From Telopea speciosissima (Eukaryota; Streptophyta; Magnoliopsida; Proteales; Proteaceae): a DNA stretch of 64,000 nt. The translations under genes were made by a program, and so were the position numbers. Shown here one piece after another: positions 931 through 35,748 of this stretch. Every line of letters starts with the position of its first letter. Positions within the stretch are counted from its first letter, which is position 1. The stretch is taken from NCBI RefSeq assembly GCF_018873765.1, contig NC_057921.1, positions 67,197,557 to 67,261,556 on the forward strand, written 5' to 3'. Under the pieces are notes generated by a model. The model was not told the origin of the DNA and made no database searches. It worked only from the letters and a program-made list of their open reading frames with translations.

Positions 931-940
931 GCTGGAAAAT

Positions 941-6282: not shown

Positions 6283-6544
6283 TGTTAGAAGGCCTGTAGA
6301 ACTGAATGCTTAGATGATCAGAATCGATCACCCAACCCCTTTATTTATAATAATCAGAATTACAACTTATTCACAATCAAAGTAGGAATGCCCCCTTGCC
6401 TATTCCTATTAGGAATTCCCATTCCAACTAGGAATCCCAAAATAGAGATCGGCTAGGGGAAAAAAAACAGAAAAAAACATAAAACTAAAAGATAAAACAT
6501 AAAGGACTAAATTACCCTATCGGGTAAAGTAGCCTATCATAACA
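6283..6544 (-). repeat. 5' LTR of the copia element
   Basis: Terminal repeat of 262 bp with TG/CA ends, followed on the right by the target duplication AAGTA (6545-6549). It differs from the other LTR at about 9 sites by eye. Confidence 0.95.
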
Positions 6545-6549
6545 AAGTA

Positions 6550-7534: not shown

Positions 7535-7679
7535 TTTCCCACTAAGTGAAACTCCTATTTGGACTTTGTTTTTGCAAAATCTGATAGTGCCATTGTATTT
7601 AAAGGGCCTAAAATAGGCTGAATACCAAGTTTCAAACTCAAACTAGGTCTAAAACCCACCGAGATGAGGTTTTGAGTCG

Positions 7680-7775
7680 GAAAAAAAAGTGCACCAACTC
7701 GGCGAGATCTCGACTCGACTCGACTCGGTTTTTCAAGGGTCTGAGTTAGCACCGAGACCCGAGTTTTCGAACCTT
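7680..7775. repeat. Second CGAGATCTCG-type repeat block
   Basis: The stretch reads CGGCGAGATCTCGACTCGAC and similar words. It mirrors the block at 735-930 in opposite orientation. No gene is visible between here and the SINE at 8076. Confidence 0.5.
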
Positions 7776-8075
7776 GGAAGCTTGAACCCAAGACCTCCTG
7801 GTAGGGTGGGCTTTTATTCTCCACACTTCTACCAATTCTGTAATGTTCATATCTGCAATTAATTTTGAACATTCAGATATTTCCTCAACATTTCAACACA
7901 AGTTGTTTTGGACTTCCCATTGTAATTTTAACTCACCAAATTAAGCCAATGCCATTCCTTGTCACTGGGGCAGTCTTTGATCTTCATTGCACATGGTTGA
8001 ACCATCTCTTTCAGGTTTCCCTATCTTGTTACCTGTCGGTTCAGCTCATAAATTATCTTGAAATTCTGATTCTAT

Positions 8076-8242
8076 AGCGGGCGAGCCTTGGCGCAATGGT
8101 TAAGCTGCACTATTGCAACCATCAAGTTGCACTATTGCAACATGGAAACAACCTCTCCGTAAAGTGGGGGTTAAGGCTGTGTACATTTGCCCCTCCCAGA
8201 CCCTACAGTAATGGGAGCCTCATGAACTGGGATGTTCTTTTC
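8076..8242 (+). mobile_element. Au-type SINE, tRNA-derived
   Basis: The 5' part has an A-box-like start (GAGCCTTGGCGCAATGGTTA). The body has GGGGGTTAAGGCTGTGTACA and CCCTCCCAGACCC, and the element ends near TGTTCTTTT. The B-box region is replaced by a short internal duplication of GCACTATTGCAAC. The same family occurs three more times in the window. Confidence 0.8.
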
Positions 8243-8671
8243 TCATCAAATTCTTATTCTATCCTTCTATGCTGCCATTTCCATCTATATTAGCGTGTGG
8301 TTGATTAGTTTAAGAGTTCGTAATTAGGCCAACATAATATTTTTTTATTTAAAACAACAGCTTGTTGTACAATTTGCCCATTTTTTCTTTGATTTGTTTT
8401 ATTCATGCTCATATAGTCTTGAAATGGAATGGCTTGACACCATTCTTTTGTTTTGGTGATTTGGCTTTGTTGTCCCATGGACAAGTGTAGAACCAGAACT
8501 AGCTAGTTCGATTAGTTTGCTTCTATCCATTTTATTGGATATTTGATCCTTTAGTACAAATCTGAGTTGTTTCTTTCCTTTTCGATCTTTAGCTCGCCAT
8601 GGCTGGATGCATTTTTGTCTTTGGGAAAACAATTCCTGAAGATTATTGATATTTTTTCATCTTCATAACAG

Positions 8672-14600: not shown

Positions 14601-17600
14601 TGTATTTATAATAAAGAGATAATGGATAGAATTACAGTTAGGCCCCCTCATAGCCGACTCTACTAAATAAGTTGGCTATAGAGGAAAAAACCCCAAAATA
14701 CCCTTTAGGGTTACATCACTCAACAATTCACATTGTTGCAGAGTAAAGCTTTGAAAAATGATTAAATTTGAGTAGCTTAAGATTAGTTTTTTTATTTTTT
14801 TTAAATCTATTTTCAAAGCTTTCTGCCACGAAGTGAATTCCATTTGTTCAGAAACTTTCAATGTTAACAGACTACAGAGACAATGGAAGGCATAAAATGG
14901 AAGCGTAAGAATATATACATGATACCTCATAATATTGAAAAATAATGGGTCATAGAATTGAGTTGGGCCATGGAATCTAAGACTTGGTGTGTACTTAGTC
15001 ATCTATCTATCCTATGGTCGGAATTTCCAGATCAGCCTTCCATGTGGTAGGAAGTAGATAAATCCAACCAAGCTGTGGTACATGGGCCACCAATAAGACC
15101 TTTAGTGAAAGAAAGAAATGAATGAATGTAACTTCACCTCTGTTGTTATTAGTCCTATTTAGATCCACAAAAATAGAATTTAATTTGTTTTTTCTATCAA
15201 TTCCCATTGTGCTTCTTATGTCAAGTTTCATTTTCTTGGTTCTGAATTATGTGAAAATAATGTTATGTTTGTGTGTGTGCTCAATGGCCTAAAATGGTGT
15301 TTAGTTTTTAGAATGAACCTGGAACTCCAGGATCCTGGGTCATGGAAAATTGGTTTCCTTTCTCTCTTTTCCCTATGAGTGCTTTTATTATAAGGAGAAC
15401 AGATACACCAAACAATGGTAGTGTACTGAATTCCACCATTAAAAGAAATAATTATGGGTAGTGGAGTAAACATTAACTGTGATCTTCTGGGTTAACTTTG
15501 TACCAGATCCCTATGCTTTCTCTGTATGGTGTTTTTTCTCAATCCTTTCTCTCCTTTTCTAGTTGGGGTAGGGGAAGTGGAATTTTATGATGCATTTGCA
15601 ATAATGTGCTTACATTAAATTGGTAGAAGCATCTCCTTTGGTTCCAGTTTCAAATCTCTTTAATTTCTATTGTACTTTCTTCCAGATGTTAGATGCTTTT
15701 GGGAATCATGTCAAAAAGGGATTGGAAATTCATGTAAATGTTGATGGTTTTTGTTTTCAAGACCGGGCAGGTCCACGGCGAAAGGTGAGGTTTTTTCTAG
15801 TATTTTTCCTAGTTGCTCTCTCTAAGATTTTTTTAAATTTATTTATGTTGTGATAAGTGATAACGATACCCCATTTAGTTGGGATAAGGCTATGTAGTTG
15901 TTGTTGTTTTGATTACCAATTAACCATTAATTGTCATTTTTATTGACAATCCAGTAATAATGTAACAAAACTTGGTCGTCATACTTTTCGAAAATCAGTT
16001 GTTGAGTAGTTTTTCTATTTTAATTTTTGCAGCATTGAGTGTGTTTCTATGCTGTTAAATATTTAGTTAAAGCAGTCCAATACAATGTGAGTGATCTAGA
16101 CAGTTAGTACCCTTCAATTTTTTTCATGAAGTGTGGGTCTGTAAGTAAAATTGGTGGTCCGATGTGGGATTGACAGGGATAAACTGAAGTGCAAGCATTA
16201 TGGTCGAGGCATATGAAGGAAAGGCTAGGATCTACATGGTCACAAAAGGGTCCTTTAAATGCTAGTAGAGGAGTTTGTTCTGGTGGTTTTGGATGCTCTA
16301 GTGCTCATTGTTACAAAGTAAATGATTCAAACATTTCATGGCTCACCTTGAGGCTTGTACCTCTGTTACACCCTCATTTGTCCATTCAGTGCTCAATCAA
16401 CCTACAGTCCCTGTTGTCATTACTCACTTGGAGCTTTGTTTCATGTAAATTGTGCATCTTATCTTTTCCCTTCATACTCTATTTGTTCCAGTAGAGATAA
16501 AATGAAAGTTGCTAACCAGCACTTCTCATATCACCCATTCCATATCACTTGTCCCTGTTCTCTTATGATAATTCTTTGCTACCTGTTCATCAGTAGCATC
16601 ACCTATGTTACATGGGATCGGTTAAGGTATCTGTCAAGGGGTTGGGCATCAATGTACAGAGATAATCTTTGCTACCTTTTCATCAGTAGCATCTCCTATG
16701 TTACATGGGATCCGTTAAGGTATCTGTCAAGGGGTTGGGCATCAATGTACAGGGTGGTGTTAGTAAGTTTACCAATCATGATATTGTGCAAAAAACTTTC
16801 TATGTTGATGCTTTACATGAAAATAGTATGCCTGAAAGGAGGAACCATCACCTTCTATAAATTATGATTCTGTGGTTTCCACCATGCATTTGTGGAGGAC
16901 CTGATGGATTTTTCTTATCGGATGACATATATGCTTATGTCAACCGAGTAACGAACTTTTTACACGACTGAAGTGTTTCAATGAACACGTCTGTGTAGCT
17001 GTGCAAAGACTTGATATTCAGCTGAAAGGTATCTCCTTGTATTTGAGATGAAATGATATTCTTGCTAACAAATACGATAATCACAAGAGCAAATGTTTGT
17101 TCATATATTTGTATTCATTTATTTCTAGCATTCTTTTGTATAACTCTGAAGATAGGTACCATTGAAGAAAAAATCTTCTTATGTTCTTGAGACAGAATGC
17201 TTTACCCTGGTTCAATGAAGTATGTCTTGAACATTGTTACCTGTCTTAATTGCTATTTTCTTCAACTTAGGTGGATGATGAAGGATGTGTTGACCTTAGT
17301 GGCCTCTTGAGAGTTAGCGGGGGTTATGGCAAAAATGGTATGCCTTTTTTTTCCTACACCTTCTGAAAAGTGTCACTTATGATGTTGATCCTGTGCGAAG
17401 ACTATTACCATATATGAACTCCTATCAAGGTTTAAATGTTTGAAATGTTTGCAAGTGAGCTATTCCAATATTAATTTCTCATGAGTTTCTTGATATTGAA
17501 AAAGGTGGTATAGGCAACAAGGCAGTCTATTCTTTGGATGTTGGATCTCACGAGTGGCGGTGCTACCTTTCAGTCCTATTCTTGATGAACCAACATTTAT

Positions 17601-20600
17601 ATATAGATGTATGAGGATTTGTTTGGGACGTAAAAAGCCCCTTTGACAAAGGGATGATCTTTGAATAGAAAATAAAATGGATCTGCAAGGTCCCAAATGA
17701 ATTGCCTTATTCGAAAAAAAGCCTTGCTCTTTGGAACTTTTATCATGTCTGGTACTACATGGTTAATGAAAATTTTTAGGGACAATTTCCTTGATCTACT
17801 AGATAAGAAAAAAATATTACAAAACTAGTAGGTTTACTAGAAAAGTAAGTGTAAAACAAAGTCAAACCTTCTTGTTTTGTAATATTTTTTCGGGAGATAG
17901 AACGCTACCTAGGTGCGTGCGGTGCGCTACCCTTGCGCCCAGACACAGGGCGGGCGAAATGACCTCCATGACCCCATGGGAAGGCAGAATTTCCCAGGGG
18001 TGCGGTGATCATTTCACCCGTCCCTGTGTCTGGGTGCAGAAGCAGCGTACCGCACACACCCATGTATTGTTCTTTTTCCCTATTTTTTCTTATCTAGTGG
18101 ATCTAGGTAATTTTCCCCATTTTTTATTGTATTTTTTCCAACACCTTCTGATAAGTGTCCCTTATGATGGTGATTCTTTGCAAAGACTATTACCATTTAT
18201 GAACTCCTGTCAGGGTTTAAAATGTTTGAAATGTTGTGAGTGAGCTATTCCAATATGGGACCATACTGGCAATACCATTAAATTTTTCCAAATTCATGAA
18301 TTGTTTGCTTGGATGCATTGATTAATAATTAAATCATATAGGCTTTACATTCTACAGGAATCTTTTTGCATTTCTCCTTACATTTTGGAGGAATGTATTC
18401 CTTTGGGCTTTGACAGTTTATTCAGTTAATCTCAGAAAGAAAGATTAGGAATATATCTCTTATTTGTAGGGAGCATAAATCTAGCTAGTTTAGCCTAAAA
18501 ACTTAGGATTGTATGGAACTATGTACAGATCAATGTTTTAAGAAATGATTTTTTGGGGGGGATGGTGGGGGGAGCCACCGTCTCCCACATCCGGCACAGC
18601 CCTTTTCCCATCCTATACATCAGATTTTATCTTTGGGATAAATAAATGGGTGGCTGATGGGACAACCATCAGGCATCCTGAAAGCTCTTTAAACACTTGT
18701 ACATATTGCTGGTCCACTCTGGAAAACATATTTTTAACTGCTTGTCTTTATGTCTCATGCCTTTGGAAAGTCATTTGTATCTAAAGGATCTGCATTTTCT
18801 CATCTTGAATAGCACTTTTGAGTTCTTTGTCTCAGTAAGGTAAAGTGAAGTTAAGATAGAGAAGAATGCTATGCGTACAAAATTATTTCTATGTTTCACT
18901 TACATGACTTTTAATGCTTATAATTTTTGTAAACATTACCAGTGTCTCTTTCTGTTCACTTGGATGAGAAGTTGCTATTCAAGAAAGAGTTTCATGTTGA
19001 GAAACGGGAGCTGAGAACTATGTCTACTGTTAGTATATGCTTTACTCTACTCTTCCCCCCCCCCCCCCACCTCCTTTTTTTAAGTTTAGTGTCTAGTCTC
19101 CCACTTATATTGTTGGATGCATTTGGTTCAGGTACCCGAATATTGTCCTGCTGGTTATCAACTGAAAAATATTGTCTTTGAAGTTGTTGATGCCAAAGGT
19201 GTTGTTGATGAAGCTATACATGATGAAGTAAAATATGGTCAATCTCACACATTAACAATAAAATCAGGGTCATTGGAAATAGATGGTCCAGTACACTACA
19301 CTTTTAGGCATGGGAGATGCACCATTCCCGTTATTAAGGTTCCTTCCGGACAAAATGTCTTCCACTTTGAAGTTGCTCACTCTCATCACCCTGAGCTCCA
19401 TATGAACTTCAAGGTTACATCCATTTAACACTGGTTGCATTATTTGCAAAGCCAAACTGTGCTTTATGGTTTTGAATTCTTTTTCTTGCAGATTCATACT
19501 TTACAAGGTCCAAAAGTTGAGCCAAGTGAAGTCATTGAATCTCATTATTCAGATGTAACGTTCCCACTCCTCCCAGATTCATCTCTTTATGTTCCTAAGG
19601 ATATTCATTCCTTGGTGAAGTCCATCATAAATGATGAGAAGGTAAACAAATAGGTCTTAGCACCTTTTGGATGTTAGTTTTATGGTACCTCTAATAACCA
19701 ACATTTAAATGCCCCATCTAATAACTACACTATCTGTTTTTTATTTTCTTTGAATCCTAAGTATTTCAGTTAATAGGGACAAGAGTCAATATTGCTACGG
19801 TGCTACCTCTTTTTTGTTTTTTCCCCTCTTCTGACATTTGAAAGTAGCTTTTGTTCTTTTTCTGTCTTCGGATTTTTTTTATTTTTTTTTTCTGTTTTGT
19901 GAAGTGGGACAAGAAGGTGATTTTGAGCATTATTTTTTCCCTCTCAATTTCATATTACATGCTTTGCTCATGATTATCTGGCAGGATCTTGAGAACGACG
20001 TTTTTAGAATTGGCTTACGGATTGGGAATCATGAGGAGAAGTTAAAAATGCTCAATGACAGGAAGACAGAAATAGAGCAGGATATATATGATTTACAAGG
20101 TGGTAAACTTTCTTATATCTTCTGTGAATTACCTTTTTTTTTTCTTTGTAAAACATTCTTTCTAATGGATATTTAGTGTATACTTGAAAAATCAATAATC
20201 TGATTTTTCAGACATTATTGGAATGACTGTAATGAACTTGATGCTCAGTGGGCAAAGGATCTGAAGTTAAAGCTCCTATTTAAGGTTGAGAAGAATCAAG
20301 GCCATCTCAGATGAATGGTTGCTGTTGATATATTTGTTCCATTGTCTTTCTAAGATTAATAGTAGTTACTTCATTTGATAAACCTTGGAGCCTCTTCCTT
20401 AGCTTCTCTAAAGAATCCCTTTATCCGGCAGAATAAACTTACCTAGTGTCACTTCTTCCTATAAATTTGCTCATGCTTATTCATAATTCTACATTTGTTA
20501 ATTGATTACTTTTTGAGTTTTTCAACTTTTTTATGCAGTTAAATGTTGGATCTAGTCTTAGGTTTATCTGTATTTGTTTTATTCATTAGTTAGAAGTTGA

Positions 20601-23600
20601 GTTTGAGTTAATTTTGAATTTTGTTTAGGTTACGATAGAGTTTGAGTTCAAATTTTATTTCAGTTTTAGAGTTTGAATAGGTTTTTGTTTCTTTTTTACC
20701 TACTGCTATCCTATTTAGATGTGGGTTTTGTTGCCCTCTGGAAATTTATAGAACCCTCCGGCTGTGAGACCGTTTGATTTGAAACTTAGGGATTCACCTC
20801 ACTATTCTAGGGCGACTTATATTGCATACTTGGAGAGTGAGATACCACCTGAGACGGAAACTGTAACTCAGGTTTGAATCTGGTTCCTGTCCTTGTGTTA
20901 GATCTGAGTTACAATAATTTTTCTTTGATCTTTGACCTCTATTTCAAGTGTTGCTTGGTAAGATCAACTGGTCCCTCAGTTTCTGAACTCCTCCCAAAAT
21001 TTCAGACCACTTGGACTAGAATCGAAAGAGTTCTCTCATCTACAGCCAACTAACTCTTTCCGCCTTTCTCTTCTATCGTGAGGAAGAAGATTCTATCTTC
21101 TTATTTACATTTTAAAACCTATTCCTTTATATTACACAAAAGGAATAAACAAGTATTATTTTGCCACTTGGAAAACTGTTGACCTGCTACCCTAGGGAAC
21201 CAGTCTTCTTTTTTTCGGAGGGGGGTCAATAAGAGTAGCCATCCTCCTAGGTGTGCATCACTGTTGAATTAGAGTCCTCTTTAGACCCATACCCTCTATG
21301 GTTGCAAAGAAGCTCTTGTCTGTAAATTTTTTAGGCACATATTATCCTCAAATTTGGAATCAAATTAATACCCTTGCCTTTAGAAGTGGAGGTGCCATCA
21401 CTAGGTTCAATGATAAAAGCTTGGGTGCCTGTGTGCAGATGTGTGTTTTGAGTCTTGAAAGTGGTGACTTTTATGCAAGAGTGCTAATGGTTGGACTGTC
21501 CCCAATTGATCCATCCTGGAACCCTGCAAAGTAAGACCTGCTCCAGGTTGTGCTCCCCTCCCATCCAATTCTTTTGCATTGGTGTAAGTTCCCCCATTGC
21601 ATAAATGCAATGCTTTTGAGTGCCTCTTCCATTGTATGGCTGGAGTCAGCTTAACACCTACTCCTTTTTTGGATATTGGAAATTTGGCATAGAACCCCTT
21701 GTATAAGTACTCCACTTAATCATTTGCTTATGTGTAGACTGTAGTTGTACGTTCACTGCTCACAATCGTGGAGTATTTTCTCTATCTGCATTTTTCCCTC
21801 ATGCAACATGTCAAGATGGTATGGGCATTCACTCTTTAGTGGGGAGAATGATTTGTTTACAATAGCTGAACTCTTTCACTGTATATGTTTTGAAATCAGT
21901 GGCTTTATTATAGTTGCTTGTCGGAGATATCGTTGCAACGTATTAAAACATGGGAACTTGGTAAATTGACACAAATGGGTTTCAACTATTGATGCATGTA
22001 ACAGCTATAATGGAACCTAAGTTATCTAACCAACTGGACTATCTAGTGAATGGGAAAGAGTTAATATCAAAGCGGATAGAAAGAGAAGGTGATACTGCTG
22101 CTGCTGTAATCTGTAATCTTTCAAAGACCAATCAGTTTCTAGAATCACAGCCTTACTTAAAGCAAGATATAGTTGGCATTGTTGCTCTTCTTGGGACAGT
22201 CAATGATATCACCATTAGTAGGTAACCACCCTCATTTTACTTTTTATCATCAAATCTGTTTTTTGCCAACATGGAACATGATCCACCCCTGTTTTGTCAA
22301 ATTAAAGGTTATTTGCAGAATATTTGGGTGAAGATCACATGCTTGCAGTTGTTTGCAAGTCCTATGCAGCGGCAAGTGTTCTTGAAAAGTATGAAAATGA
22401 TGGAAAAGTGGATCGCAGACATGCTCTTCATGCAGCAGCTACAGAACTGGGGATATCAATTAACCGCCGGTTTCTTGTCGTATGCCTTGAGGGTATAAGG
22501 TGTGTTGAGTGTTTTTATATATCTATTACAGAACAGTTGTACAATGACTAATTATCTTTGTTTTCATTTTTTTTTTTTTACCCCTCTGAGCTCCAAAATG
22601 CATACTAACTTGCAAGAAATATGTATTTGTGGGAATGCCATGTGCTGTCAGAAAAGTCTAAATTGGTCGGGTTTGTTGACAGGCCTTATACTGGGGAGTT
22701 TGAAAGCAAAAATCCCCCGAGGAAGCTAGCCTTGCCGGATCCACTTCTGCCGACTGGAGAGATCCCACATGGATTCTTAGGGTATGCAGTTAATATGATC
22801 AACCCAGACATTCATTACTTGCATATAAGGACAATTGCAGGACATGGTCTTCGTGAAACTTTATTCTATCTACTTTTTGGTGAACTCCAAGTGTTTGAGA
22901 CAAGGGCAGACATGGAGCGAGCTCACTCCTGTATAAAGCATGGGGCCATTTCTCTTGATGGTGGGATTATGAAAGGCAATGGTATCATTTCTCTTGGATA
23001 TCGGTATGTGCTTTCACTCTATCCATATTAATGGGATATTCTAATCACCTAGATTAGGGTTATATAATCCCATGTAATTCAGGACTCTAGGGATTAGGGA
23101 CTCAAAATTGAAACAAAAATTTAGCGACTTCCCAATAGCACCCTTGATTTAGAAACTCATAAAATAGCTAGTTGCTAAACTTCACGGCTCTCAAAAATAT
23201 CATGTCACCAAAATAGAAACATAGGATAGATTTAGTAATGGAGAATTAAAAGTTACTGAAATAGCAACTCCAAATTTAGTAAGTAACTATAGAGATATAG
23301 CAAGTAGGAACCAAATTTGAAGAAATCAAATGGTTACCAAAATAGTAAGTTGCTGAAAATAGAAACTCAGATTTAGTAACTACTGAAAAACACCAACTAG
23401 TATAAGAAATGGCAAGTGAAACCAAAATATAAAATAGGGAATGAAATTAGTATCTAAGGAAACAAGGTAGGAAGAGGGTGTAGAAAATAGAAACTAGGAC
23501 AAGTATGTTGCTAGTGTAGGACACCAGCAATGATCTGAAACTTTAATGGAAGGAGGAGAAGAAGAAAGAAGGAAGGATATGTTAGGCCTCTCACCTAACT

Positions 23601-25562
23601 GTGGAGAAGGCACGACGCTTGTATTACTCTCCCACAACCTCATTTTCAAGGTTTAGGCTGCTCCCATTTCTTTTCCTCTAGCTACAAAGATGTTTCAGTT
23701 CGCCAGGTTGTTTCTTACCTGCCCATGGATTCAGCAGCAGTTCGAAAGGTTGACCTATTTGGGAATCTTTGGATCTATGCTTATTTTCAACTCCCTGAAT
23801 CATTTTGTCACTTACTCCGCCCTTCCCTCATCTCCAGGTGCCTAGGTGTCCACCATAAGCCTTTCCTCGTTTGAATCTCACTGTTAACTTTAAGGCTATG
23901 CCATCCTAATGTAGTGCTAAATGGAAGGATCTAATCAACGTCCATAAATGGTAAATCAGAGATTGAACTGCCAAATCGGAAAAATTGGGTGCAGTCATAT
24001 ACCTTTGAATCGGCTAAGTTCACGAGCTGGAGATAATAAGCAGGGACTCAAAACGCTGACATCCACCATAGGTTAAACCACCGCCTCTCAAGCCTCCTCA
24101 ACTGATTCTACCATAGAGGCCAACGATAGACAATAATTTCCCCCGAACACAGCTTACAACATTCATCGTACTGTGCTCTTCAAAGAGCAACTCCTCTCAA
24201 ATCTAAAAAGGTGCTGAGTGGTAATCCCATATTAAGGATTCTTGTGGTTTTGGAGAATCCAGCTACAAGAGAAACAAAAACGGAGAGCTTTCTCCCCTTT
24301 TCCCCCGACTCTTTGATCTTAAGAATGCTGGTTTTAAGAATGAATGATTGCCCTTCTCTGACCCTTACTGCCCAACCTGACAGCGGACAGCTAATGCGTT
24401 CCACTTATTTAACGAGGTTCTGTGGTCAATCCGCTCTAATGTAGTCCTAGATAGGTAGGAGACCTACTAGGAGCCAGTTCAACCAGGATCTGTAGAACTG
24501 CTGGTTCGATGGAGGCAGATTTGAGGTTTTAGGTCAAAATTAGGGTTTAGGTTAGGTTTAGGTCAGGTTTGTCTTATATGGTCATGATAGAAATTAACTA
24601 TTTAATCCATATAGGAATTCAATCCCCCTATTATGTGGGCTTATAGAATTGGCCCATAACAACAGTAGACCTAAAATATGAACATATGACCCATACAACC
24701 CAATGGGCACTCAAATTAAGCCTATTAATCCGTTCTTGGTCTAGTTTAATGGCCTGCTTTTCTGCTGGCCGCCTTGTTCTTTTGAACTATATCACATATA
24801 TTGAAAAGTAAAAAAATTATTTACTGTAAATTTTTTTTAAGCATTGTTTTTTGTGAAACTTTCTTGAGTAGTCCATGATCATGGGGCAGTTCTGCATGAA
24901 ATCTTGTGTATAGATAGGTGATCAACCAATGATTCAATAAAATGCAGCTACTTTCTGATCCATGAAAGTTCTGTTTGTGGCTTGGTGCAACTTGACAAAG
25001 ATGTGTTTGTTGCAAGCTTGCTCTCTTCTCTTACCTTTTTTTAGTTTCAATTTTTTTTTTTTTTTTTTTTTGGGGGGGGGGATGATGTTGGGGTTGGTTT
25101 GCTACTTGCATTTGGTACATGTGTTTTCTCTGCCACATAAATGAGGGGAATGTGGGGGGGGGGGGGGTGTTGTTTTGTTTTGCTAGTTGCAAGCTTGCTA
25201 TCTTCTCTTAACTTTTTTTTTTGGTTTCTCAATCCGCTTCCAAATCCACACATTTCAACCTGGATCAGTTTTCTGTTCTATTCAGGGAACCAGAAGTATG
25301 CTTTCCTGTTTTCATGCCAGAAGATCCAATGGATTTTGCTACAGACACAACCATTGAAAATCTGAGTCAGATCGAAGATAAAAAGTTGGAGTTGGTGTCA
25401 ACTAATGATGAATTAACAAGAGAAAGCAGAGCCCACGGCAAAGCAGTAAAGAAGTTCCAAAAGAAGAAAGAATGGTACAAAAAACTAATGGATTACAAGG
25501 AGCCGCTGGTAAGGGGAACCCAGTTAGAGTACAAGCCCAACAACATAAAGGAAGAGTACTAG
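8672..25562 (+). CDS. GMI1: GMI1, SMC-hinge/GHKL-type protein (3' part; 5' end outside the window)
   Basis: GMI1 is a nuclear SMCHD1-like protein linked to repair of DNA breaks. Exons: 8672-8762, 8887-8921, 9796-9871, 9974-10156, 10343-10501, 10766-10787, 10890-11004, 11092-11208, 11332-11652, 11759-11874, 12827-13004, 13109-13217, 13428-13522, 15686-15784, 17271-17337, 18943-19028, 19132-19413, 19492-19641, 19985-20099, 22005-22221, 22308-22499, 22683-23003, 25286-25562. All phases fit and give 1140 residues. The first exon ([16 protein letters not shown]) lies after the GHKL ATPase in this family, so roughly 450-500 residues are missing to the left. The middle resembles the long beta-rich region of the family. 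A coiled coil starts near residue 770, the hinge ([27 protein letters not shown]) spans about 815-1040, and a second coiled coil ends the protein. Family and frame are firm; single splice sites are less so. Confidence 0.87.
12201..12339. mobile_element. MITE family A, short copy
   Basis: A 139-bp element with inverted ends: the left end is GGGAAAATTGCCTAGATCTA and the right end, reversed, is AGGGACAATTTCTTACATCT. Flanks TTAATTTA and ATAATTTA look like an imperfect 8-bp duplication, which would fit a hAT-type MITE. The internal CTACTTGTTTTGTAAT is shared with the larger copy at 17779. It sits in the GMI1 intron between 11875 and 12826. Confidence 0.75.
13201..13335 (+). repeat. 68-bp tandem duplication across an exon-intron border
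   Basis: The segment starting at 13211 (TGTCAAGGTATTGTACTTTA) recurs at 13279 as TGTCAATGTATTGTACTTTA with few changes. The first copy contains the end of a GMI1 exon and its donor AAG|GTATTG; in the second copy the donor reads AATGTATTG. Confidence 0.9.
13678..14725 (-). mobile_element. Truncated copia element: LTR, primer site and gag start
   Basis: On the - strand the order is LTR (14544-14725, TG/CA ends), primer binding site TGGTATCAGAGCC (about 14531-14543), an untranslated leader, and a gag start at 13878-13680. That start contains [18 protein letters not shown] and [11 protein letters not shown], close to the gag start of the complete copia element in this window but from a different family. 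The remaining gag, pol and second LTR are absent. It lies in the 2.2-kb GMI1 intron 13523-15685. Confidence 0.85.
14544..14725 (-). repeat. 5' LTR of the truncated copia element
   Basis: About 182 bp, beginning TGTTAACAGCAG on the + strand and ending CTCAACA. It lies next to the primer binding site. No second copy is seen nearby. Confidence 0.7.
16566..16755 (+). repeat. Two tandem copies of a 93-bp unit
   Basis: The unit runs from GATAATCTTTGCTACC to GGGCATCAATGTACAG and is repeated once with very few differences. It lies in the GMI1 intron 15785-17270. The open stretch across it is a by-product of the repeat and has no domain. Confidence 0.92.
17345..17471 (+). repeat. Direct repeat, copy 1, next to a GMI1 donor site
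   Basis: This 127-bp segment (with ACACCTTCTGAAAAGTGTC and GTGAGCTATTCCAATAT) recurs at 18131-18256. It begins just after the exon that ends at 17337. Confidence 0.85.
17779..18118. mobile_element. MITE family A, long copy with inner inverted repeat
   Basis: The outer ends match each other in inverted form over about 35 bp (GGGACAATTTCCTTGATCTA and, reversed, GGGGAAAATTACCTAGATCC). Inside lies a second GC-rich inverted repeat (17905-18050) with the word CCCAGACACAGGG in both arms. The outer ends match the small element at 12201-12339. The inner part may be another MITE that inserted into the first. Confidence 0.8.
18131..18256 (+). repeat. Direct repeat, copy 2, directly after the MITE
   Basis: About 85-90 % like 17345-17471 by eye. 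It starts about 12 bp after the end of the long MITE, so the duplication flanks the MITE on one side only. Confidence 0.85.
23004..25285 (+). other. 2.3-kb last intron of GMI1
   Basis: The intron separates the hinge exon from the terminal exon. It contains a short repeat at about 24437-24497 that recurs inverted at 52595-52655. It also has a partial duplication of a segment beginning GTTGCAAGCTTGCT (25010 and 25187), and homopolymers T21G10 at 25051-25081 and G14 at 25154-25167. No further exon fits the protein family here. Confidence 0.7.
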
Positions 25563-27003
25563 GGAGTCTTGTCCCTGTTCTGTTTCAATTCATGATTTTG
25601 TTGATGTTGTACAGAGATTTTGTAAGTATCTCTTCCTGGTAATTTTTGTACATAACCTTATTTATGTTTTTATTTGTAAATATATACTTATATGAGCCCT
25701 CTGTGGATTAAGTTGTGACTCTAGTTTATACCATGTATACAAGTCTAAATTATGCCATCTATACAAAAGCGGTTAATGGGCAATCTATTGCGATGGTCAC
25801 ATAAACAAAACAGCCTGGTTATAAGCATGGCATGGGGACTCCTGATGACAGTTTGGTTTCATTGAAGGAGCGAAGACAGAAGCCCAGAACTGTATGTGTA
25901 CAAAATTTTAGCTCAATGTAGCTACCACAAATGGAGGGAGCCCCTCTAGCTAAAAGATCCATCGACCATAGGCTGTGTCTAGTTGTGTGTCAAAGGAAGG
26001 AAACTGAAATCAGTTTTAAATTGAAAATCTAATTTTTTGTACTCAATTGTGTAATCAACATAAAGTGTTATTAGTATAGTAATAGGGGAAGAGAACGATA
26101 CCTGGTTGTCATGTGCAGCGCTTGGTTCCTGTGTGACTGTCTCACTCAGGGATTTCTGCTTTTCCATAGCGTTGTGGCGGTCATTTTGTGTGGTAGTGTT
26201 TGGGAGCAAGGGCTTGCGCGTGGCATGTTACCTAGTATGGTGCTTTCTTCCATGGTAATAATATACTTTTCAAATAGAGTATTTATGTAGTTTTATCGGT
26301 GAGAGTTTTTGTATAAGCCGTTGGATCGTGCCCACGACCTTTCATCCCCATCCAACGGTTGCAACCTGCATGCAATCTTTTTCCATTTTTATTAAAACAT
26401 AGGTTCTTAGGTGTAAGCCCTTTATTTCCCTTGCAAATAGACACCCTGAAAATGTGATCTTCTGTGAAGTTTGGCTGAAGAGAACTTCTTGTATGGTAGC
26501 AAAGAGAGATTTTTCCTTCACCCAAGCCTCGAGAAGAAGAAATAATCTCTTCATAATTTCATTCATCACTTTTGGTAGTTAGTTGGAGGGTAGTAGTGGA
26601 ACAGTGCCAGATATTTTTTGGAGACATCTTGATTGTCAAGGAGTGTTGGCACATGACAGTATATTTGGTGGTCAAAATTCTCTCTCAGGTAAGGGTATGC
26701 CAACCATGCAAATGAACTTTTTCACCCATGGCAAAAATCATAATCAAAACTTTTTTAGTATAAGGTTTTGATTATGATTTTAAAAGTTGTAATCTTTGTT
26801 AAAAACGATAGATAATTGATGTTAATAGCTTATAAATTAGCCAGCGAGTAATCGAGTAAGAGTAGAAAAACTATCAATGATTGTATACTATGATGTTCAT
26901 TTATTTTTTGTTTAATTAATGTGATTTTTTTTTAAAAAAAAATCATGATCAAAACTTGAAATTGGCTAAATTACCTTCCACGTCAAAATAGGTATTTCTT
27001 CTT
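25563..27003. other. 3' flank of GMI1, no gene seen
   Basis: The AT-rich sequence after the GMI1 stop includes the probable untranslated end (TTTTGTAAGTATCTC near 25620). No open frame with a recognisable domain follows before the Mutator-like element. Confidence 0.6.
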
Positions 27004-27012
27004 AAATTTTGT

Positions 27013-29217
27013 GGGTAAATTACAGATCAACCCTTGGTTTGTGAAAAAACTCAAATCACCCCTTGGTTTAGACCTCAAAATGTTAAATTAGTCCTTGAGT
27101 TAGTCTTAAGCTGTTAAGTGATGATGTCACCCAGTTAAATAAATTTAAATTCTTAAACTACCCTTGATTAATGTTGATTTACGATTTTACCCTTGTAATT
27201 AAAAACCCCAAATTCTATCTTCTTCCTCACACACCACACTTTTCCTCACCTGGAACTCAATCTCCAGCTGAACTTCACCAGAGAGAAGAAAGAGAATAAA
27301 CAGTAGAATTACAAGGAGCTGCTTGCCCGACGAGTGACGACCACTCCTCTCCTAGCCCACCACCCTGCGCCTTTTCTCCCTATTCCATTTTACAGATTCA
27401 AGGTGTTTCTGGACAACAATAGCGAAGGATTCTGTCTCTCCTTCTCCGCAACTTCTCCTTAATCAAAATCTCCTTCCCCTCTGTTTGGCCAGAGTCCGCA
27501 GTTTCCCTTGTCGCCATCGCTTCAGCTTAATTCTAGCAATTTCGACTTCAATCCTCCACCATCGATCCTTGGAACCCTATTGGAGACCGACAGTGGTTCC
27601 CCTTTCTCCATGAAATTGGAGCTCCCTTCAAGCCAACAGCCCCAGCCAGCAGACACAGCTACTGCTGCCTCGAGCACCACCGCCAATGAGTACAAGATCA
27701 CCTCGCCGCTGGGCTAGAGCAATAGTGGAATATTGGATGCTCTGTTGGGTGAATCCCATGCTATTATGGGCGGCGACGATTCGAGGAGAAGTGGTTTGTT
27801 GGAAGAGAAACGTGGATTAGATGGATTGGTCAGTGTCAGTGATGCACCTCCTTCTATGTTAGTTTTCTATGAGAGTACCACCACCCGTTCTTTAGCTTCT
27901 ACCAATCGATGGGATGATTCCAGCCCCGCCCATTCCTTCGCTGGTAAACTCTCTTCCTCCTCCTCAATTGGATTTGCTTTGTTTTACTTCAAGTCAAAAA
28001 TTTTGATTGCCTTCAAGGGTATCTCTAGATTAATTTCATTCCAGAAGGATTGAAATAGAGAGTAAAAATAGAGAATGAATTGAACTCCCAACCAACAGAA
28101 ATAGTAGTAATAATGAAATATTTAAACTCTGTTTTGGATCCGCTGTTACCTTTTATATTTATATCGTACACAGATCTGCTGATGCTTCCCATATTGTTCA
28201 TTTTGTTTTCCCTTTTCAAATATTGTTCATCTGTATTCCTTTCTGCTTTCACTTTTTCATTAATTTCTGCTTTCTTAGTTCTTTAAATCATCACCATCAT
28301 TATAATTGTTTAATTCAATCTTTCATAATCCACCACAATAGAGCATAGCTGTTCTTATAACAAAAATCATGGGCTGCTGCCATTGATTCATTGCAGGGGT
28401 GAAGATAAAGAAAGAGGGAATATATGAGATCAATTCAATAGAAGAAAACTTGAGGAGTCTGTTTAATATAATCCCTTCTACGATGTCGGTGTCTGAGTGG
28501 TATAGCGACAGCGGTGAGATTTCAAATGGGCCATCATCAGGTGTGACTGATGATGAGAAGAGTATGTTAGAACTCTCCATCTCCGATCATTGATTTGGGA
28601 TTTTAATTCATGACCGGCAAAACCTAACTCTTCATCCCCTAAGTCATCCTCTGTTGTTAGATCGAAAACCTACAACTTGGATTGATTTTTTGTCTGCCGC
28701 TTCTTCTGATTTCAACAAACTATTAGCAGAATAATTTATCAGGTTTGGAACTTCCGTGGGTTGAGATTGAGGAGTTGGTTGATAATGAACTTTATTCTTG
28801 CAGGATTTGGGCTCAAGGAAAGAGAGCTCGATCGTTGTTTCTAAGTTGGAGTTACCACTGGTCCTTGCTTCCGTCGTTAGGATGAAGAAGACTTATTCTT
28901 CTTCAATACCTAAGCTTCTGTTAATTACAGTTATGCTTCTCCTTGTTGAGTTGGATTACATTAGACCATTCTTTCTTCCGAAGTTCCAGCGGAGTTGCAG
29001 GGAAGGGGGTGGGGTATTTGAGGTTGAAGATGAAGGAAGGGTATTATTGTAAATTTAATTTTAATATTTTAATGCAAAGGTAAAATAGTCCTTTCACATC
29101 AGTAACTAACAGCTGATTAACACCGTTACTATAGAGGGGGTAATTTGAGTTTTTTCAAAAATCAAGGGGTGATCTGAGTTTCGATGGAAAACTAAGGGAT
29201 GATTTGTAATTCACCCT
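27013..29217. mobile_element. Mutator-like element carrying gene fragments (Pack-MULE type)
   Basis: The ends are long inverted repeats: the left begins GGGTAAATTACAGATCAACC and the right, reversed, begins GGGTGAATTACAAATCATCC. The similarity extends for over 100 bp. A 9-bp duplication flanks it with one mismatch (AAATTTTGT at 27004-27012, ATATTTTGT at 29218-29226), the size typical of the Mutator superfamily. No transposase is present. The interior holds gene-like sequence with a retained intron (27484-28593) and a further unassigned GC-richer part at 28800-29050. It lies in the gap between GMI1 and DMS3, ending about 0.9 kb before the DMS3 start codon. Confidence 0.85.
27484..28593 (+). pseudogene. 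Captured fragment resembling the C-terminal region of a GAMYB-like MYB gene
   Basis: The first part (27484-27943) reads QSPQFPLSPSLQL, MKLELPSSQQPQ, DEY-like NEYKITSPLG, then an in-frame stop, then SNSGILDALLGES. The second part (28397-28593) joins in frame across a GT-AG intron (27944-28396) and reads GVKIKKEG, IIPSTMSVSEWYSDSGEISN and GVTDDE. The order and motifs recall the region after the DNA-binding repeats of GAMYB-like R2R3-MYB factors. The MYB repeats themselves are absent. Intact splice signals show genomic capture rather than a spliced copy. The identification is from memory of the family and is tentative; the gene-fragment nature is clearer. Confidence 0.55.
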
Positions 29218-29226
29218 ATATTTTGT

Positions 29227-30137
29227 ATGCTTTTTTAATTAATTAATTGAAATTTGGAGCGACTTTACAATGATTCAAGTAAAATGACTCGACTCAGACG
29301 GATTCATGATTGAATTTTGTTGTTGTTTAATTTATTTTGATTGAGTCTATATGAATCTGATTTTTTAAAATTTTGATTCGATTCAGATGACTCGCTCAAG
29401 TGGAAACCTAGTTTTTCATCTATGATTCAAACAGTCAAATCCAACGCTCCAAGGTTTATTAGTAGGTCACGTACTTACCAAATTACCATGAGTAATGTTT
29501 CCAGATACCGCAAGATAAACCCGGCCTGGTGTCCAGATTGATCCCGGTTGATTCTGATATGATCCGAAACAGAATTGGGTGGAATCGGCCTATTTATTAG
29601 ATATGAAAAACTATCCATCTGATCCAACTGGATCCGATCCGATTGTAAGATCACTGGATACCCGCTTACGTCGCCCGCAAAAGTACATAATGACGCCCCG
29701 CTTACGTGGCAAGGACGTTGCATTTCTTTTGTTTTGTAGTTTTTTCTATTTGCCAAGGAGAATTAGAGAGTACCATCGTGTACTCCGCAATCTCTGGAAC
29801 CCTAGATTCAAGCCCAAACCAACCTGTATGGAGAATTTGCCAAAACTGATCTTTATCACTGCTCTGATCTTACCCCTACATGCAATATTTCACCACTGAG
29901 TAACTTGCTTTAGTTGGGAAACCATTTATGAATCTCAAATTTGTGGGGAATTGCTAAAACTGTTTGTTTATGGCATATATTTCTCTGTAGCCATCGAACA
30001 TTCGTGATTCCTTCGCTCGTTGCTCGACGTTTTTCAGGTACAGGCGAGTAAGGGCGTAGAAAGAAAATAACAAACAGAGAGTGATAGAGAAAGACAGGCG
30101 GAGACAGAGGGCGCCTTCTCGTCTCGTCATCTTCGTC
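29227..30137 (+). promoter_or_regulatory. Upstream region and 5' leader of DMS3
   Basis: This is the 0.9 kb between the Mutator-like element and the DMS3 start codon. It includes a block of GATCC-rich repeat words near 29540-29650 and a purine-rich probable leader at 30030-30137. No confident TATA box or operator-like motif is visible. The short open stretches have no domain. Confidence 0.4.
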
Positions 30138-33100
30138 ATGTTTCAGCCCAACCACCAGGTTTTCATCCACTCTCTTTAACCTTTTATCTTTCCAGGAAAG
30201 AACAAAAATCTAGGGTTTCCTTCCCCCCACCTCTTTTTTTTGGGTTAAATTTTGTTTGAAATACAAAGTAATTTGCGTATTTCGAGACTGAATTGGCGGA
30301 TGGTTAAGCCGCTGCTAGTTTGGCGTAAAGGAAACGCTATCCTTTTCATGTTGTCTAAATTTGGCGGGTCTTAGATGAAATGTCATTAAAACTGTGGGAG
30401 CATTGTTGTGTTCCACATAATTTGGAACTCTGATCGTTTCCTGACGGTAATGTATCCAACTGGTTCTAGTCTGCTGATCCACCCGACCTTACTTGGAAGT
30501 GCTTGATAAAGAAATGTCTGCAATGAAACCAAAATGCATCCTTGACATATGGAGTTGGTACTTCCACAGACATGCAACCACCAACTCTACTACTAACCTA
30601 GTATTCATTAAACATCGAACTGACAAGTATCAAAGCCTGTGGTTATACGAGGTGAAAATTGCATGCCAGTTTCTGGTTCCGTCTTCCTCTCTGTTTGCCT
30701 AAACTCAATTTATATTAATGGGTCTGTGCTTCGGCATGTGTTTCCCGGCTCGTTTAGTAATCTTGCATTTTAGCTGAGTTACATCTGGCCACATATAAGC
30801 CCCAAACCTAGTATGAGTGGAGCATTGATTATGGCTATAGCCCCTATTCTGAAGTGCTCAGGCAAAATAACCAACCGAAAAGAGAAGAAGAAGATAGCTA
30901 TAGTGTGACATCCTTCCAACTTTGAAATAAAAGAGTTCATGTCTTTGACAATGTTCATCAAGTAGGTATCCCCATTTTTCTGCCCAAATTGATGATGTGG
31001 TCTACTGTACCCAGTTATTCTCATGTAGGGCCCACATGGAAATTTACTCCTCAACCCCAGGTTTGGCTTCTTTTGCACAAGGCATCAAATATACAGGAAA
31101 AGTTTTTAAGACACCCATAATTCTGTCAAGTTTAGTATGGTTGATTCTTTACCCCCCCTCCCCCCCCAAACAAAAAAAGTTTAGCTGGGTAATTTTTCTA
31201 CATTTCATCACCATTGAAGTTGTCCTATATATAGAAGAGAGGAGCCCAAGTCTTCTTTTTTTTACTTTTTTACTCCTTGTTTCTCTTTCATTTGGTTAAT
31301 AATAGTTTGCTTTTTGTTTTTGCATGAGGTGTATGCTCTGATAGTTGACGGAGCTTTTGTTCTTTCTTCGTTGATCTTCTTTGCACTGATACATGCCAGC
31401 AATTTTTTGGCTTTTTTTCAGTTCTTGATTTCTCCGAGAGCATTGAATCCTGTGGAACGGAATGACCCCTTTGTGATAGCGGAGAGTGAAACACAGAAGG
31501 AAGAATTTCGTAAGGTGGAGTTCGTTTTAACCTATTCCAAGGTTGGTCCAGTCCTAATTCTGGAACTCCCTTGGAGCCTCTATTCTTTTGTGCATATATC
31601 AGATAAGCAACATATTGTCATGTAGTTCCTGTCAAGCAGTTTTTAACCTAGTCCAGTCCATAGTTGTCACGGCATCTAGGCGAACTAAGGCGATCAAAGG
31701 GGTAAAAAAACAAAGCGACACCAGCAAACAAAGCGAGAGAAAAGTGCCTGGACGCCTAGGCAGTGCCTAGGCGACGCCTTGACAACTCAACTATGGTCCA
31801 GTCCATGTTCATTATGTCATCCATTGACAAAATCACTGTCCTTGGAATAGGCGCAGTTCAACCAGAAGTAATGTTTTATTGATTTGATTTGTACAGGAAC
31901 TTCAGGATGATCTACAAAATTTAGGGCTGAGAATCAAACACCATGAAGAGAATATTAAATTTTTGAAGAACTACACAAAGAGCTTAGACAAATCAATTTT
32001 GGACATCCATGGTATTTTTTCCTCTCCTTTTTTGAACTCCATATTGCACAAGAAAACATTTAGGTGTATCAGTGTTAAGTATTGCTCTACTAACATCAGT
32101 AATTTGTCAGGTACTCTGGGGAAATACCATTCAAGTGAAGTTAAGAATGAAAATGAGAATAGCAACCACTTTCAAACTGAGGACACAATTGAACAGATAC
32201 TACGGCATGAGAAATCTGCAGCTGCCTTATTATACCTGCTGAAAACTCGTCATGGGAGTCAGGCACCAAATCTACCCTTTACAAAGGATGTGTTGGGTAC
32301 TGTAGCTACACTGGGCAGAGTAGATAATGATAACCTTAGTAGGTTAGTTTCTGTTTGAATTTCCTTTTTATTTTTATATCAAGATGTGGAGTGGCACAAT
32401 AGTGATATGTATACTACATGTTACTATTTCGAGTGACTGGTAAAATAATCATTTTTTGTTTTGTCATAACTCAGTGTCCCCTCCCCACCCCTCTCCCCCG
32501 CCCCAAACCACAAAGAATATATCCTACGGACCAACCTGTATTTTTTGGCCAGTGGTCAAGAAAGTTCAATAAGTTGCACTATTTTGGACTGTGACACTTA
32601 ATATTAGTGCTGACTATCATTTGGTTTTTCAGATGGTTATGGTAGTCTGGGGAAATCTGTTTTTTGAAGGTTGCCCACTGATTGGATGCTTTATCAGTGA
32701 GGTGGTCCATTAATTTCAATGGATGGTGTAAAGAGGGAACTAATGAAAAGAGGAGCATTGTGAGATGCCTTCATTTGCCAATTAATGAGGTTTCAGTCCA
32801 TTCTAACATTGATTGATTTACAGAATTCTGTCGGAGTATTTAGGTTTGGAGACTATGCTGGCAATCGTATGCAAGACATATGAAGGCGTTAAAGCTATGG
32901 AGTTGTATGACAGGGAAGGCAGGATCAATAACAGTACTGGTCTTCATGGACTTGGATCTTCAATGGGAAGGCCCATGGATGGCCGATTTCTAGTCATTTG
33001 TCTTGAAGATTTAAGGCAAGAATCTCAAATATTTCCCAAGTTTGCAGATAAGCCGACCCATATTCTGAATATGTTTTTCTGTGCAGGCCGTATTCTGGTG

Positions 33101-35748
33101 AGTTTGTAGCTGATGACCCGCAAAGGAAGATTTCTCTTCTGAAGCCAAGATTGCCAAATGGGGAGTGTCCAACTGGATTTCTTGGCTTTGCTGTGAATAT
33201 GATCATTTTGGACAGTGCAAACTTATCTCTTCTCACTGGTAGTGGGCATGGCCTCAGGGAGACTCTATTCTATGGCCTTTTCTCACGGTTGCAAGTATAT
33301 AGAACAAGAGCAGAAATGCTACTTGCTATCCCTTGCATTAGTGACGGTGCTGTCTCTTTGGATGGTGGAATCATTAGGAGCAATGGTATATTTTACCTGG
33401 GAAGTAGGTAATCCTCAAGCTCCATTTATAACTTTAGGAAAATCTATTGGCAATCAAGTTTTGCTTGATTCAGGGTTTTTTTCTCCTCCAAACTGCCTCA
33501 CAGTTTGAAAATTATCCTCAGTTTCCTTGTTTTGAGTTTGGGTGCGGTGAAAATGTCCCAACTATTCTCACTGTTGTTATGGGATGTTTTTATCATTGCT
33601 TTTTGTAGGTTCTGGAAATTGCATGCCTCATCTAATGTATCAATGAATTAAAAATTAGAGAGAGAGGGTTCATTGAGGAATATTTTTATTTGTTAGGAAA
33701 ATTAAATAAATCCAAACTGCAGTGTATGATGGAATCTGGCCATTCCTTTCGTGGACTGTTTGAGGTGTTTGGTTTGAGTACCAATTTGACCAAGCTTGTT
33801 TATTTTGCAATAGCTTCTGATAACGAACTTTATGTGCTTTAAGGAAAGACATAGAGGTGAGATTCCCAATAGGCTCTGGAACAACAAATCTTCCTCTGGA
33901 CTACATACAAGCTGAGGAGAAGATCAAGCAAATGAAATGGGAAAAAGAGAGACTTCTTGAAGATATGCAAAGAGAGCAGGCATTGGTGAACCATGTAAAG
34001 AGCAAATATGATTCAAAAAAGCAAGAATTCGTCAAGTTCATAGCTCAAAGCTCACATAGTCCATTTCAGGTACAGCCTTGGGCATATTTCTTCTAACAAG
34101 TAACTGAAATACTCTTTTTTGGCGGTTTGGGGGGGGGGGGGGTGTTGGGGTTGGACATACTTATTTTCACCCCTTTGCTGCATGTCTCCTGATTAAGGCT
34201 TTTTTCGTTTCTGTCTTCCACTAGTTCTACCAATGTTTTGCAATAAAATCCATCATTAACCGACAAAAAAGGTTAGAAGAAATAACAAGGAAAAGTGGGT
34301 ATAAGATGCTTTTTTTTTTTAATAAGTTTCAGTTGCTATTCTAATAACCTGCAATTGTGGTTCCAGTTGATTCATGATTGTAACTACTAGGAAGCTTGTT
34401 TGGTTGCATTTGTAAAGCATTTACTATAATGAATCTCTGTATGCATATGCACTTTCAGAAGTACAAAAATTTATTTGGTGCCTTATGAACCAGGGGAAAT
34501 ATCAATTTTAGAAAGAAAAAGGGAAAGTGAGAGGAGGAAAAAGTCAACATGAACCTTATTTCTTATAAGCAGCCTTTAGTTACCTATAAAAAAAAAATTT
34601 GGTGGGTGGGGGAGACCAGAAATTTAGGTGAGACCCCACCTCTTTTCTTCAGTGTTGGATTTTTTGAATGTTCGAAATTTTAATCGAAATGTTCGAAATT
34701 TTTGGCAAAATATTTCGACCATTTCGATAGGGTCAAAATGACTTTTCCTATTGAAATCTCAAACCTTCTTCTTCCCTATAAATCATACCTCTAGTTTGTC
34801 CCTCTCAACCTCTAAGAGGAGTTAGATACAAACTCTCCATGGAAATGCCATGAGGATGATCTAATGGTTTTTGGCAAGGACAAGTTGTGTAGTGGGAAGG
34901 TGTCGGTCATAGAATAAGTTTATGGGTATATGTTGGCTTGGTTTAGGCGGTTTGTGTGCTCTTCTGCCATAATTTTTCAGATTATTACTTTCACAAGATG
35001 TCTCAATCAGCCAATGCTTCAAGATTTTTAAAGGGATGATGCCCCCCTTTTTCTGAGGAATGTCAGTTGATGGGAACTTGAAAAAGTAAATTTGCTTGGC
35101 ACTATTTGAAAGAGGAGTCATTGAAAAAATAAACTGGAAGAGACGCGTGTATGGTGGGTAATATGATTGAGATGGATCACCAAATTTGAACTGAGAACAA
35201 TCCAAGGGGTGTTTCTCTATTCAACAGTCAAAATGCCAAGTAATCAATCCACATGGTAAAAAAAGTTGGTCGTGTAGGAATCCATTCCCAGTCTTTGTGA
35301 GAAACTTTATCCAATTTTTGGAAGATTTGAGAGTCTGAAACTTGGGTAGCAGCAAGGGAAGTAGCAATAATACGCTCATTGGTGTTCTTTTTATGCTATT
35401 TGATCAGTCTATCTCAACTCATTTTACCGATTAACATTATTTTTTGATTAATAAACATGTTGAACAGTCCAGGAATAGAAGTATAGAACTTCAGATTTGA
35501 AGACAGTGACAGAAATTATTTTTTGACCAAGAAAAGGTCCCTGGTTATACTTTACCAACCTTTCAAATTTCAGTAACTCTGTCTACAAAATTTGCTTTAT
35601 GACTAAATTGTATAGCTTATTTCTGTTCTATCACGATGTAAGGTATATGATCTTGTATTATTTGATGAACATGTCCTGATTTCTGTTCTGTTACCATGAG
35701 CAGAATCAAGTTCCAGTAGGACGAGATAGAAGCATCATCCATAGATGA
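30138..35748 (+). CDS. DMS3: DMS3, SMC-hinge protein of RNA-directed DNA methylation
   Basis: DMS3 joins DRD1 and RDM1 in the DDR complex, which brings RNA polymerase V to chromatin in the nucleus. Exons: 30138-30158, 31422-31541, 31897-32011, 32111-32342, 32824-33015, 33087-33407, 33844-34069, 35704-35748. They join in phase to 423 residues; Arabidopsis DMS3 has about 420. The first exon codes only MFQPNHQ, as short as in Arabidopsis. A coiled coil ([16 protein letters not shown]) comes first, then the hinge at about 110-345 with [24 protein letters not shown] and AVSLDGGII, then a charged coiled coil ([18 protein letters not shown]). No ATPase part exists, which is normal for DMS3. The intron after 33015 appears to use a GC donor. 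The gene follows GMI1 in the same direction. Confidence 0.93.
31660..31795. repeat. Dispersed repeat with GGCG/CTAGGCG words in DMS3 intron 2
   Basis: The ends are loosely inverted (TAGTTGTCACGGCATCTAGG and CGACGCCTTGACAACTCAAC), and the word CCTAGGC recurs inside. Similar degenerate blocks lie near 12650-12760, 52060-52200 and 58600-58920. A decayed DNA transposon end is possible. Confidence 0.6.
34070..35703 (+). other. Last intron of DMS3
   Basis: 1.6 kb separates the C-terminal coiled-coil exon from a 45-nt last exon. It holds a G14 run at 34129-34142 and a CGAAATTTTAATCGAAAT-type repeat at 34660-34730, but no exon that fits the protein. Confidence 0.6.

Follow-up and report, generated by a model that had tools for sequence, protein, structure and literature searches.

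How did a hinge protein without an ATPase of its own come to lie directly behind a long ATPase gene that carries a related hinge? The question is raised by 64 kb of the Telopea speciosissima genome (C6:67197557-67261556, where C6 is contig NC_057921.1; this whole stretch is the window, and negative coordinates lie before it). It holds DMS3, one of six proteins of RNA-directed DNA methylation (RdDM) that have been reported as angiosperm-only (PMC4607528), and the 3' part of a gene that we take to be GMI1. The two genes stand head to tail on the + strand, GMI1 first, with 4,575 bp between the GMI1 stop and the DMS3 ATG. We found that they share an exon frame and lie in a block that is present a second time in the genome, and we propose, with a probability of about 0.7, that they are ancient tandem paralogues still side by side and that DMS3 arose when a GMI1-type gene was partly copied in tandem.

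The exon frame of GMI1 and DMS3

The part of GMI1 that shares its exon frame with DMS3 occupies 19985-25562, and the DMS3 gene occupies 30138-35748:

1..25562, + strand: GMI1, 3' two thirds (exon peptides; many upstream borders judged by eye)
19985..20099, + strand: GMI1 coiled-coil exon, 115 nt (recomputed borders, common junctions)
22005..22221, + strand: GMI1 exon, 217 nt, pairing with the 232-nt exon of DMS3 (recomputed borders, alignment)
22308..22499, + strand: GMI1 hinge exon, 192 nt (recomputed borders, alignment)
22683..23003, + strand: GMI1 hinge exon, 321 nt (recomputed borders, alignment)
25286..25562, + strand: GMI1 last exon, returning coiled coil and stop (recomputed borders)
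30138..30158, + strand: DMS3 exon 1, start codon (counterpart on C1)
31422..31541, + strand: DMS3 exon 2, 120 nt, without likeness to the preceding GMI1 exons
31897..32011, + strand: DMS3 coiled-coil exon, 115 nt (recomputed borders, alignment)
32111..32342, + strand: DMS3 exon, 232 nt (recomputed borders, alignment)
32824..33015, + strand: DMS3 hinge exon, 192 nt, followed by a GC donor (recomputed borders, alignment)
33087..33407, + strand: DMS3 hinge exon, 321 nt (recomputed borders, alignment)
33844..34069, + strand: DMS3 returning coiled-coil exon, 226 nt (recomputed borders, alignment)
35704..35748, + strand: DMS3 short last exon and stop (spliced open frame)

The preliminary description of this DNA, made from the sequence alone, had placed the two hinge genes about 4.6 kb apart and had matched their coiled-coil and hinge exons one for one, and recomputation of the borders bore out both statements. 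The lengths in GMI1 and DMS3 are 115/115, 217/232, 192/192, and 321/321 nt, and all four internal GMI1 exons have AG/GT borders. Within the common part, all five junctions agree in alignment column and in phase when GMI1 is compared with the two DMS3 genes of Telopea (column, phase: 56, 0; 94, 1; 173, 2; 237, 2; 344, 2). By a simple combinatorial count, random placement of five introns in each of the two genes would make all five coincide with a chance of ~8e-14. Outside the common part, DMS3 carries one extra short last exon. Adjacency, the same orientation, and common intron positions are thus all found together, as in tandem paralogues made by DNA duplication, and the five common introns support the view that DMS3 and GMI1 are related by duplication at the DNA level.

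Spliced DMS3 is an open frame of 423 aa. It matched Arabidopsis DMS3 (PDB 6ois) at 434 bits (E 3.2e-129, query residues 18-408 of 423), and a Pfam scan at E up to 1 returned no ATPase family. The tail of GMI1 matched the same chain at 231 bits, and the glycine of the hinge-dimer interface, numbered G339 in Arabidopsis by our own alignment, is invariant in all four aligned sequences, GMI1 among them. We assigned the hinges of both proteins by homology to DMS3. The Pfam SMC_hinge model (PF06470) was rejected as a marker, as it matched neither DMS3 nor GMI1 at E up to 1; a genome search with it gave four places elsewhere and none at the GMI1-DMS3 locus.

The presumed ATG of GMI1 lies 12.4 kb before the window (-12421, C6:67185135), which gives the gene a span of 37,984 bases to its stop. 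We placed 24 exon peptides from -11787 to 25559, with the ATPase part before the window; the model is based on exon order and splice sites, and many upstream borders were set by eye. When the N-terminal exons were joined by eye, they matched HATPase_c_3 at 29.5 bits (cut-off 25), indicating a GHKL-type ATPase domain. This domain was visible only after joining, and raw-frame Pfam scans of the 10 kb that precede the window and of its first 20 kb, where the final 7 kb were scanned in two of the three frames, did not find it. A candidate S5-type domain in the joined exons gave 16.8 bits with SMCHD1_S5, below the cut-off of 27. No Pfam family matched the middle region, and phmmer searches of the PDB with the ATPase part and other N-terminal and middle exons gave best E values of 0.98, 0.14, and 1.5. 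The name GMI1 is accordingly a putative one, taken from the architecture of a GHKL ATPase with a C-terminal hinge part.

The first two exons of DMS3 have no partner in the common frame. They would be explained if the whole of GMI1 had been duplicated in tandem and the second copy had then lost the ATPase and the middle exons by deletion. Both genes have a phase-0 junction just ahead of the coiled-coil exon, so DMS3 exons 1 and 2 might be an eroded remnant of upstream GMI1 exons. However, exon 2 of the two DMS3 copies aligned with the two preceding GMI1 exons no better than shuffled sequence did (861, 1966, 1497, and 1759 of 2000 shuffles were equally good; for three control exons, 0, 72, and 0 of 2000), and none of the upstream GMI1 peptides in the set of 24 matched between the two genes. 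We consider duplication of the whole gene unlikely.

The introns of GMI1 hold several insertions. A Copia-type long terminal repeat retrotransposon (1012-6544, frames on the - strand, 263-nt end repeats 97% alike) was placed inside the gene, where the flanking exons are at -0.1 kb and 8.7 kb, and a long hairpin at 6680-7339 consists of two 274-nt arms that are 96% complementary and 112 nt apart. The last intron contains a fragment of bacterial-type large-subunit ribosomal RNA (23400-24180, - strand), adjoined by a group II intron match just under the gathering score; the fragment is probably inserted organelle (plastid) DNA. Between GMI1 and DMS3 lies a likely DNA transposon (27013-29217) with inverted ends that are alike at 36/40 and 46/58 positions. 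By eye, its frames resemble pieces of a GAMYB-type gene, and a Pfam scan of one short piece gave no match.

The duplicate block and the neighbours in Arabidopsis

The plant sequences compared were the Telopea genome (822,943,500 bases, 1287 contigs) and PDB chains. With DMS3 as the query, the genome yielded 15 matches at E up to 10, nine of them at this locus (six at DMS3, three at GMI1) and the remaining six at C1:86907614-86916179. The latter belong to a second, intact DMS3 of 433 aa, which has the same exon order and differs in the length of two exons (144 and 238 nt vs 120 and 232). When parts of GMI1 were used as queries against the genome, one search returned 14 matches and the other 6, none of them a second GMI1; the count from these searches is one GMI1 and two DMS3 genes.

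The surroundings of the two DMS3 genes are collinear by blastn (174 kb of C6 vs 140 kb of C1, 139 pieces), with the common order starch synthase, IQD gene, DMS3, KELP-like gene, SKIP8-like gene (inverted), and aspartyl protease. The starch synthase is SSI (best PDB match 4hln), and the other genes are marked by the domains DUF4005, DEK_C, F-box, and TAXi/Asp; IQD, KELP, and SKIP8 are tentative names, assigned by eye. After C6 itself, C1 was the second-best place in the genome for KELP (of 14 matches), SKIP8 (of 4), and IQD (of 25). Two of these synteny markers lie within the window, and further pieces of the SKIP8-like gene at 48.4-58.6 kb also match C1:

40592..41032, - strand: KELP-like coactivator gene, DEK_C frame (DEK_C 48.7 bits; name tentative)
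59405..59953, - strand: SKIP8-like F-box gene, first exon (F-box-like domain; name tentative)

With several flanking genes collinear, C6 and C1 form a genome-duplication block; in Macadamia, which belongs to the same family as Telopea, a recent genome duplication has been reported (PMC8906886). Ks (synonymous divergence) between the two DMS3 copies is 0.23, with a ratio of nonsynonymous to synonymous divergence (Ka/Ks) of 0.43. Six stretches from five flanking genes gave Ks values of 0.33-0.70, making DMS3 the least diverged gene of the block. Gene conversion or strong constraint is possible as a cause of the low DMS3 value (30138-35748 vs C1:86906367-86920434). Both copies also have a GC-AG intron (donor at 33016; C1:86914699), which therefore predates the genome duplication; the corresponding GMI1 junction has GT. 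Gypsy-like retroelement frames, recognized by eye, stand between the IQD gene and GMI1 at about -33.9 to -14.8 kb, and similar sequence is found at C1:86869308-86874911.

In the C1 duplicate, DMS3 has no GMI1 beside it. All 24 GMI1 exon peptides matched on C6, and 4/24 matched on C1, all at DMS3 exons; the C1 gap between the IQD side and DMS3 matched 0/24 of this set, which does not cover every exon. The highest-scoring nucleotide match within the gap (17875-18094), a candidate GMI1 remnant, was rejected as a dispersed repeat that occurs there in both orientations.

Locus numbers in Arabidopsis run along the chromosomes, and At4g10920 is presumably KELP. The preliminary description had put DMS3 and GMI1 on different Arabidopsis chromosomes, in agreement with their numbers, At3g49250 and At5g24280 (PMC7541909). 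SSI is At5g24300 (PMC3608163), and three IQD genes are IQD21 (At3g49260), IQD15 (At3g49380), and IQD16 (At4g10640) (PMC1368998). By these numbers, Arabidopsis GMI1 would be next but one to SSI, and DMS3 would adjoin an IQD gene; IQD15 and IQD21 are both at most 13 locus numbers from DMS3. The Telopea IQD gene has the motif GHNVRKQ, which has been published for IQD17 and IQD18, two members of group Ic, to which IQD15 and IQD16 also belong. Farther along the block, SKIP8 is At4g10925 (PMC5440562), At4g10920 is a transcriptional coactivator (PMC9039731), and CNX3, whose type is represented in Telopea by a MoaC gene at 69.2 kb, is At1g01290 (PMC5791162). Members of the block thus occur in Arabidopsis as small neighbouring sets on chromosomes 1, 3, 4, and 5, the pattern expected from repeated genome duplication and loss. 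Because SSI and IQD are both neighbours in the Telopea block, the tandem looks old, and duplication plus loss would have separated the pair.

Adjacency in this one species with no support from synteny, which the preliminary description had named as a finding against its interpretation, is not what we see: the C6/C1 block and the locus-number neighbours in Arabidopsis both lend such support. These also fit the suggestion that the locus may keep the ancestral order. Alternatively, GMI1 could have moved beside DMS3 on C6 after the genome duplication, C1 never having had it. The C1 gap, with 0/24 GMI1 peptides and a dispersed repeat as its best nucleotide match, would fit such a move, but the position of Arabidopsis GMI1 beside SSI would then be coincidence, and it is unlikely that a moving gene would land exactly beside its closest relative and in matching orientation. 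We regard secondary adjacency as improbable.

Age, direction, and origin of the pair

In the common part, DMS3 is identical to the C1 copy at 80.7% (302/374) of positions, to Arabidopsis DMS3 at 56.0% (200/357), and to GMI1 at 37.1% (135/364); GMI1 and Arabidopsis DMS3 share 41.7% (145/348). Because DMS3 is closer to its Arabidopsis counterpart than to the gene next to it, the DMS3-GMI1 split would predate the split of Telopea and Arabidopsis. It would also predate the genome duplication, because synonymous sites between DMS3 and GMI1 are saturated (proportion of differing sites, pS, about 0.75), as against a Ks of 0.23 between the DMS3 copies.

The proposal that DMS3 is a tandem copy of the 3' part of a GMI1-like gene is supported as far as the DNA-level duplication goes (5/5 introns); its direction and the partial nature of the copying are the parts that we infer. 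Two lines of comparison point to the long gene as ancestor: the architecture of SMCHD1, and a survey in which DMS3-like proteins are reported in angiosperms only and gymnosperm sequences are inseparable from GMI1- and SMC-related ones (PMC4607528). Rooting with solved hinges was tried and rejected: a hinge profile built from GMI1, the two DMS3 proteins, and Arabidopsis DMS3 gave four PDB matches, of which only DMS3 was real (E 0.41-0.86 for the other three).

In the explanation that we favour, the 3' part of a GMI1/SMCHD1-type gene would have been copied directly downstream before Telopea and Arabidopsis separated. The copied part would have comprised the coiled-coil exon, the hinge exons, and the returning coiled coil, without the ATPase; this copy may then have gained exons 1 and 2 as a new short 5' end and become DMS3, while GMI1 stayed long. 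The hinge module of a GMI1-type machine would thereby have been freed by partial tandem duplication and later specialized for RDM1 and DRD1. Judging from the Arabidopsis papers, DMS3 would dimerize with itself through the hinge and carry a short arm of antiparallel coiled coil, with RDM1 and DRD1 as its scaffold for recruitment of Pol V. Later genome duplications would have copied the block, and gene loss would have split the pair: the C1 duplicate in Telopea would have retained DMS3 and lost GMI1, and in Arabidopsis GMI1 would have stayed beside SSI in one region and DMS3 beside IQD genes in another. That this locus is the birthplace of DMS3, that the tandem has been kept since before the angiosperm radiation, and that repeated one-sided loss after genome duplication (C1 in Telopea, chromosomes 3 and 5 in Arabidopsis) hid from gene order its descent from the 3' half of a DNA-repair ATPase gene is a more tentative extension, to which we give slightly less than an even chance.

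Several points weigh against this explanation. The absence of GMI1 from C1 cannot by itself separate loss of GMI1 from its later arrival on C6. DMS3 exons 1 and 2 showed no link to GMI1, the S5 match of GMI1 scores below its cut-off, and the search of the PDB with the hinge profile found no outgroup hinge to root a tree. The Arabidopsis adjacency was taken from locus numbers rather than from Arabidopsis sequence, and the counterpart of the IQD gene is ambiguous, IQD15 and IQD21 both being near DMS3. A VIT-family gene, which in Arabidopsis lies between GMI1 and SSI, gave 39 matches in Telopea, the nearest on C6 being 6.8 Mb off and none lying near C1:86.9 Mb. The angiosperm-only survey was filtered by length and ATPase motif (PMC4607528), and another paper (PMC6624907) counts one alga, one moss, and one lycophyte among the species in its 'DMS3' figures, which is at odds with an angiosperm-only distribution.

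It is least probable that a short DMS3-like hinge gene is the older and that GMI1 is a MORC-type ATPase gene fused to a tandem copy of it: the sequences at hand leave the pair unrooted, but the order of ATPase and hinge recurs in animal SMCHD1 (PMC5651269), DMS3-like proteins are reported in angiosperms only (PMC4607528), and GMI1 matches SMCHD1_S5, if below the threshold.

With the tandem still in place and the introns matching, a concrete and testable origin can be proposed for DMS3, in partial tandem copying of a GMI1/SMCHD1-type gene. MORC6 has been proposed as the source of the ATPase that DMS3 lacks (PMC5651269); with a DMS3 hinge that has no motor, RdDM would then rebuild in two proteins what GMI1 holds in one. 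There is nothing unusual in the mechanism, which combines tandem duplication and loss of domains with a later loss on one side, and the genes and the type of event are known. In the literature that names both DMS3 and GMI1, within the passages covered, we found no description of the tandem, its duplicate, or the remains of its split; that search went by word starts, which names such as 'AtDMS3' (PMC7541909) escape, and it did not cover a DMS3 collinearity figure in PMC6624907. SSI, IQD, KELP, and SKIP8 can serve as markers for finding the locus in other angiosperms.

Comparison with known systems

The DMS3 hinge fold is akin to those of SMC1-4 (PMC6718625), a published likeness of fold that does not extend to the Pfam model of canonical SMC hinges (PF06470), which neither DMS3 nor GMI1 reaches. 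Animal SMCHD1 has the domain order ATPase, S5, hinge (PMC5651269), with which GMI1 can be compared, its own S5 match being below cut-off; no SMCHD1 chain in the PDB was matched by sequence with GMI1 parts or with the hinge profile. Arabidopsis GMI1 (At5g24280), which has been linked to DNA repair (PMC5651269, PMC7541909), is likewise a long gene with a GHKL ATPase and a C-terminal hinge part; the Telopea gene differs in its span of ~38 kb and in introns that hold a Copia element and organelle-like DNA.

Arabidopsis DMS3 (At3g49250; PDB 6ois, 6oit) resembles the DMS3 of the window over its full length (56.0% identity over 357 residues), with a hinge flanked by two coiled-coil helices and the interface glycine kept. 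The Arabidopsis protein forms a hinge-mediated dimer whose end helices fold as a coiled-coil arm; RDM1 bridges DMS3, DRD1 orders one arm, and DMS3 binds both and recruits Pol V (PMC6718625). The two species differ in arrangement: the Arabidopsis pair is on different chromosomes, whereas in Telopea 4,575 bp separate DMS3 from the GMI1 in front of it, and C1 carries a further DMS3.

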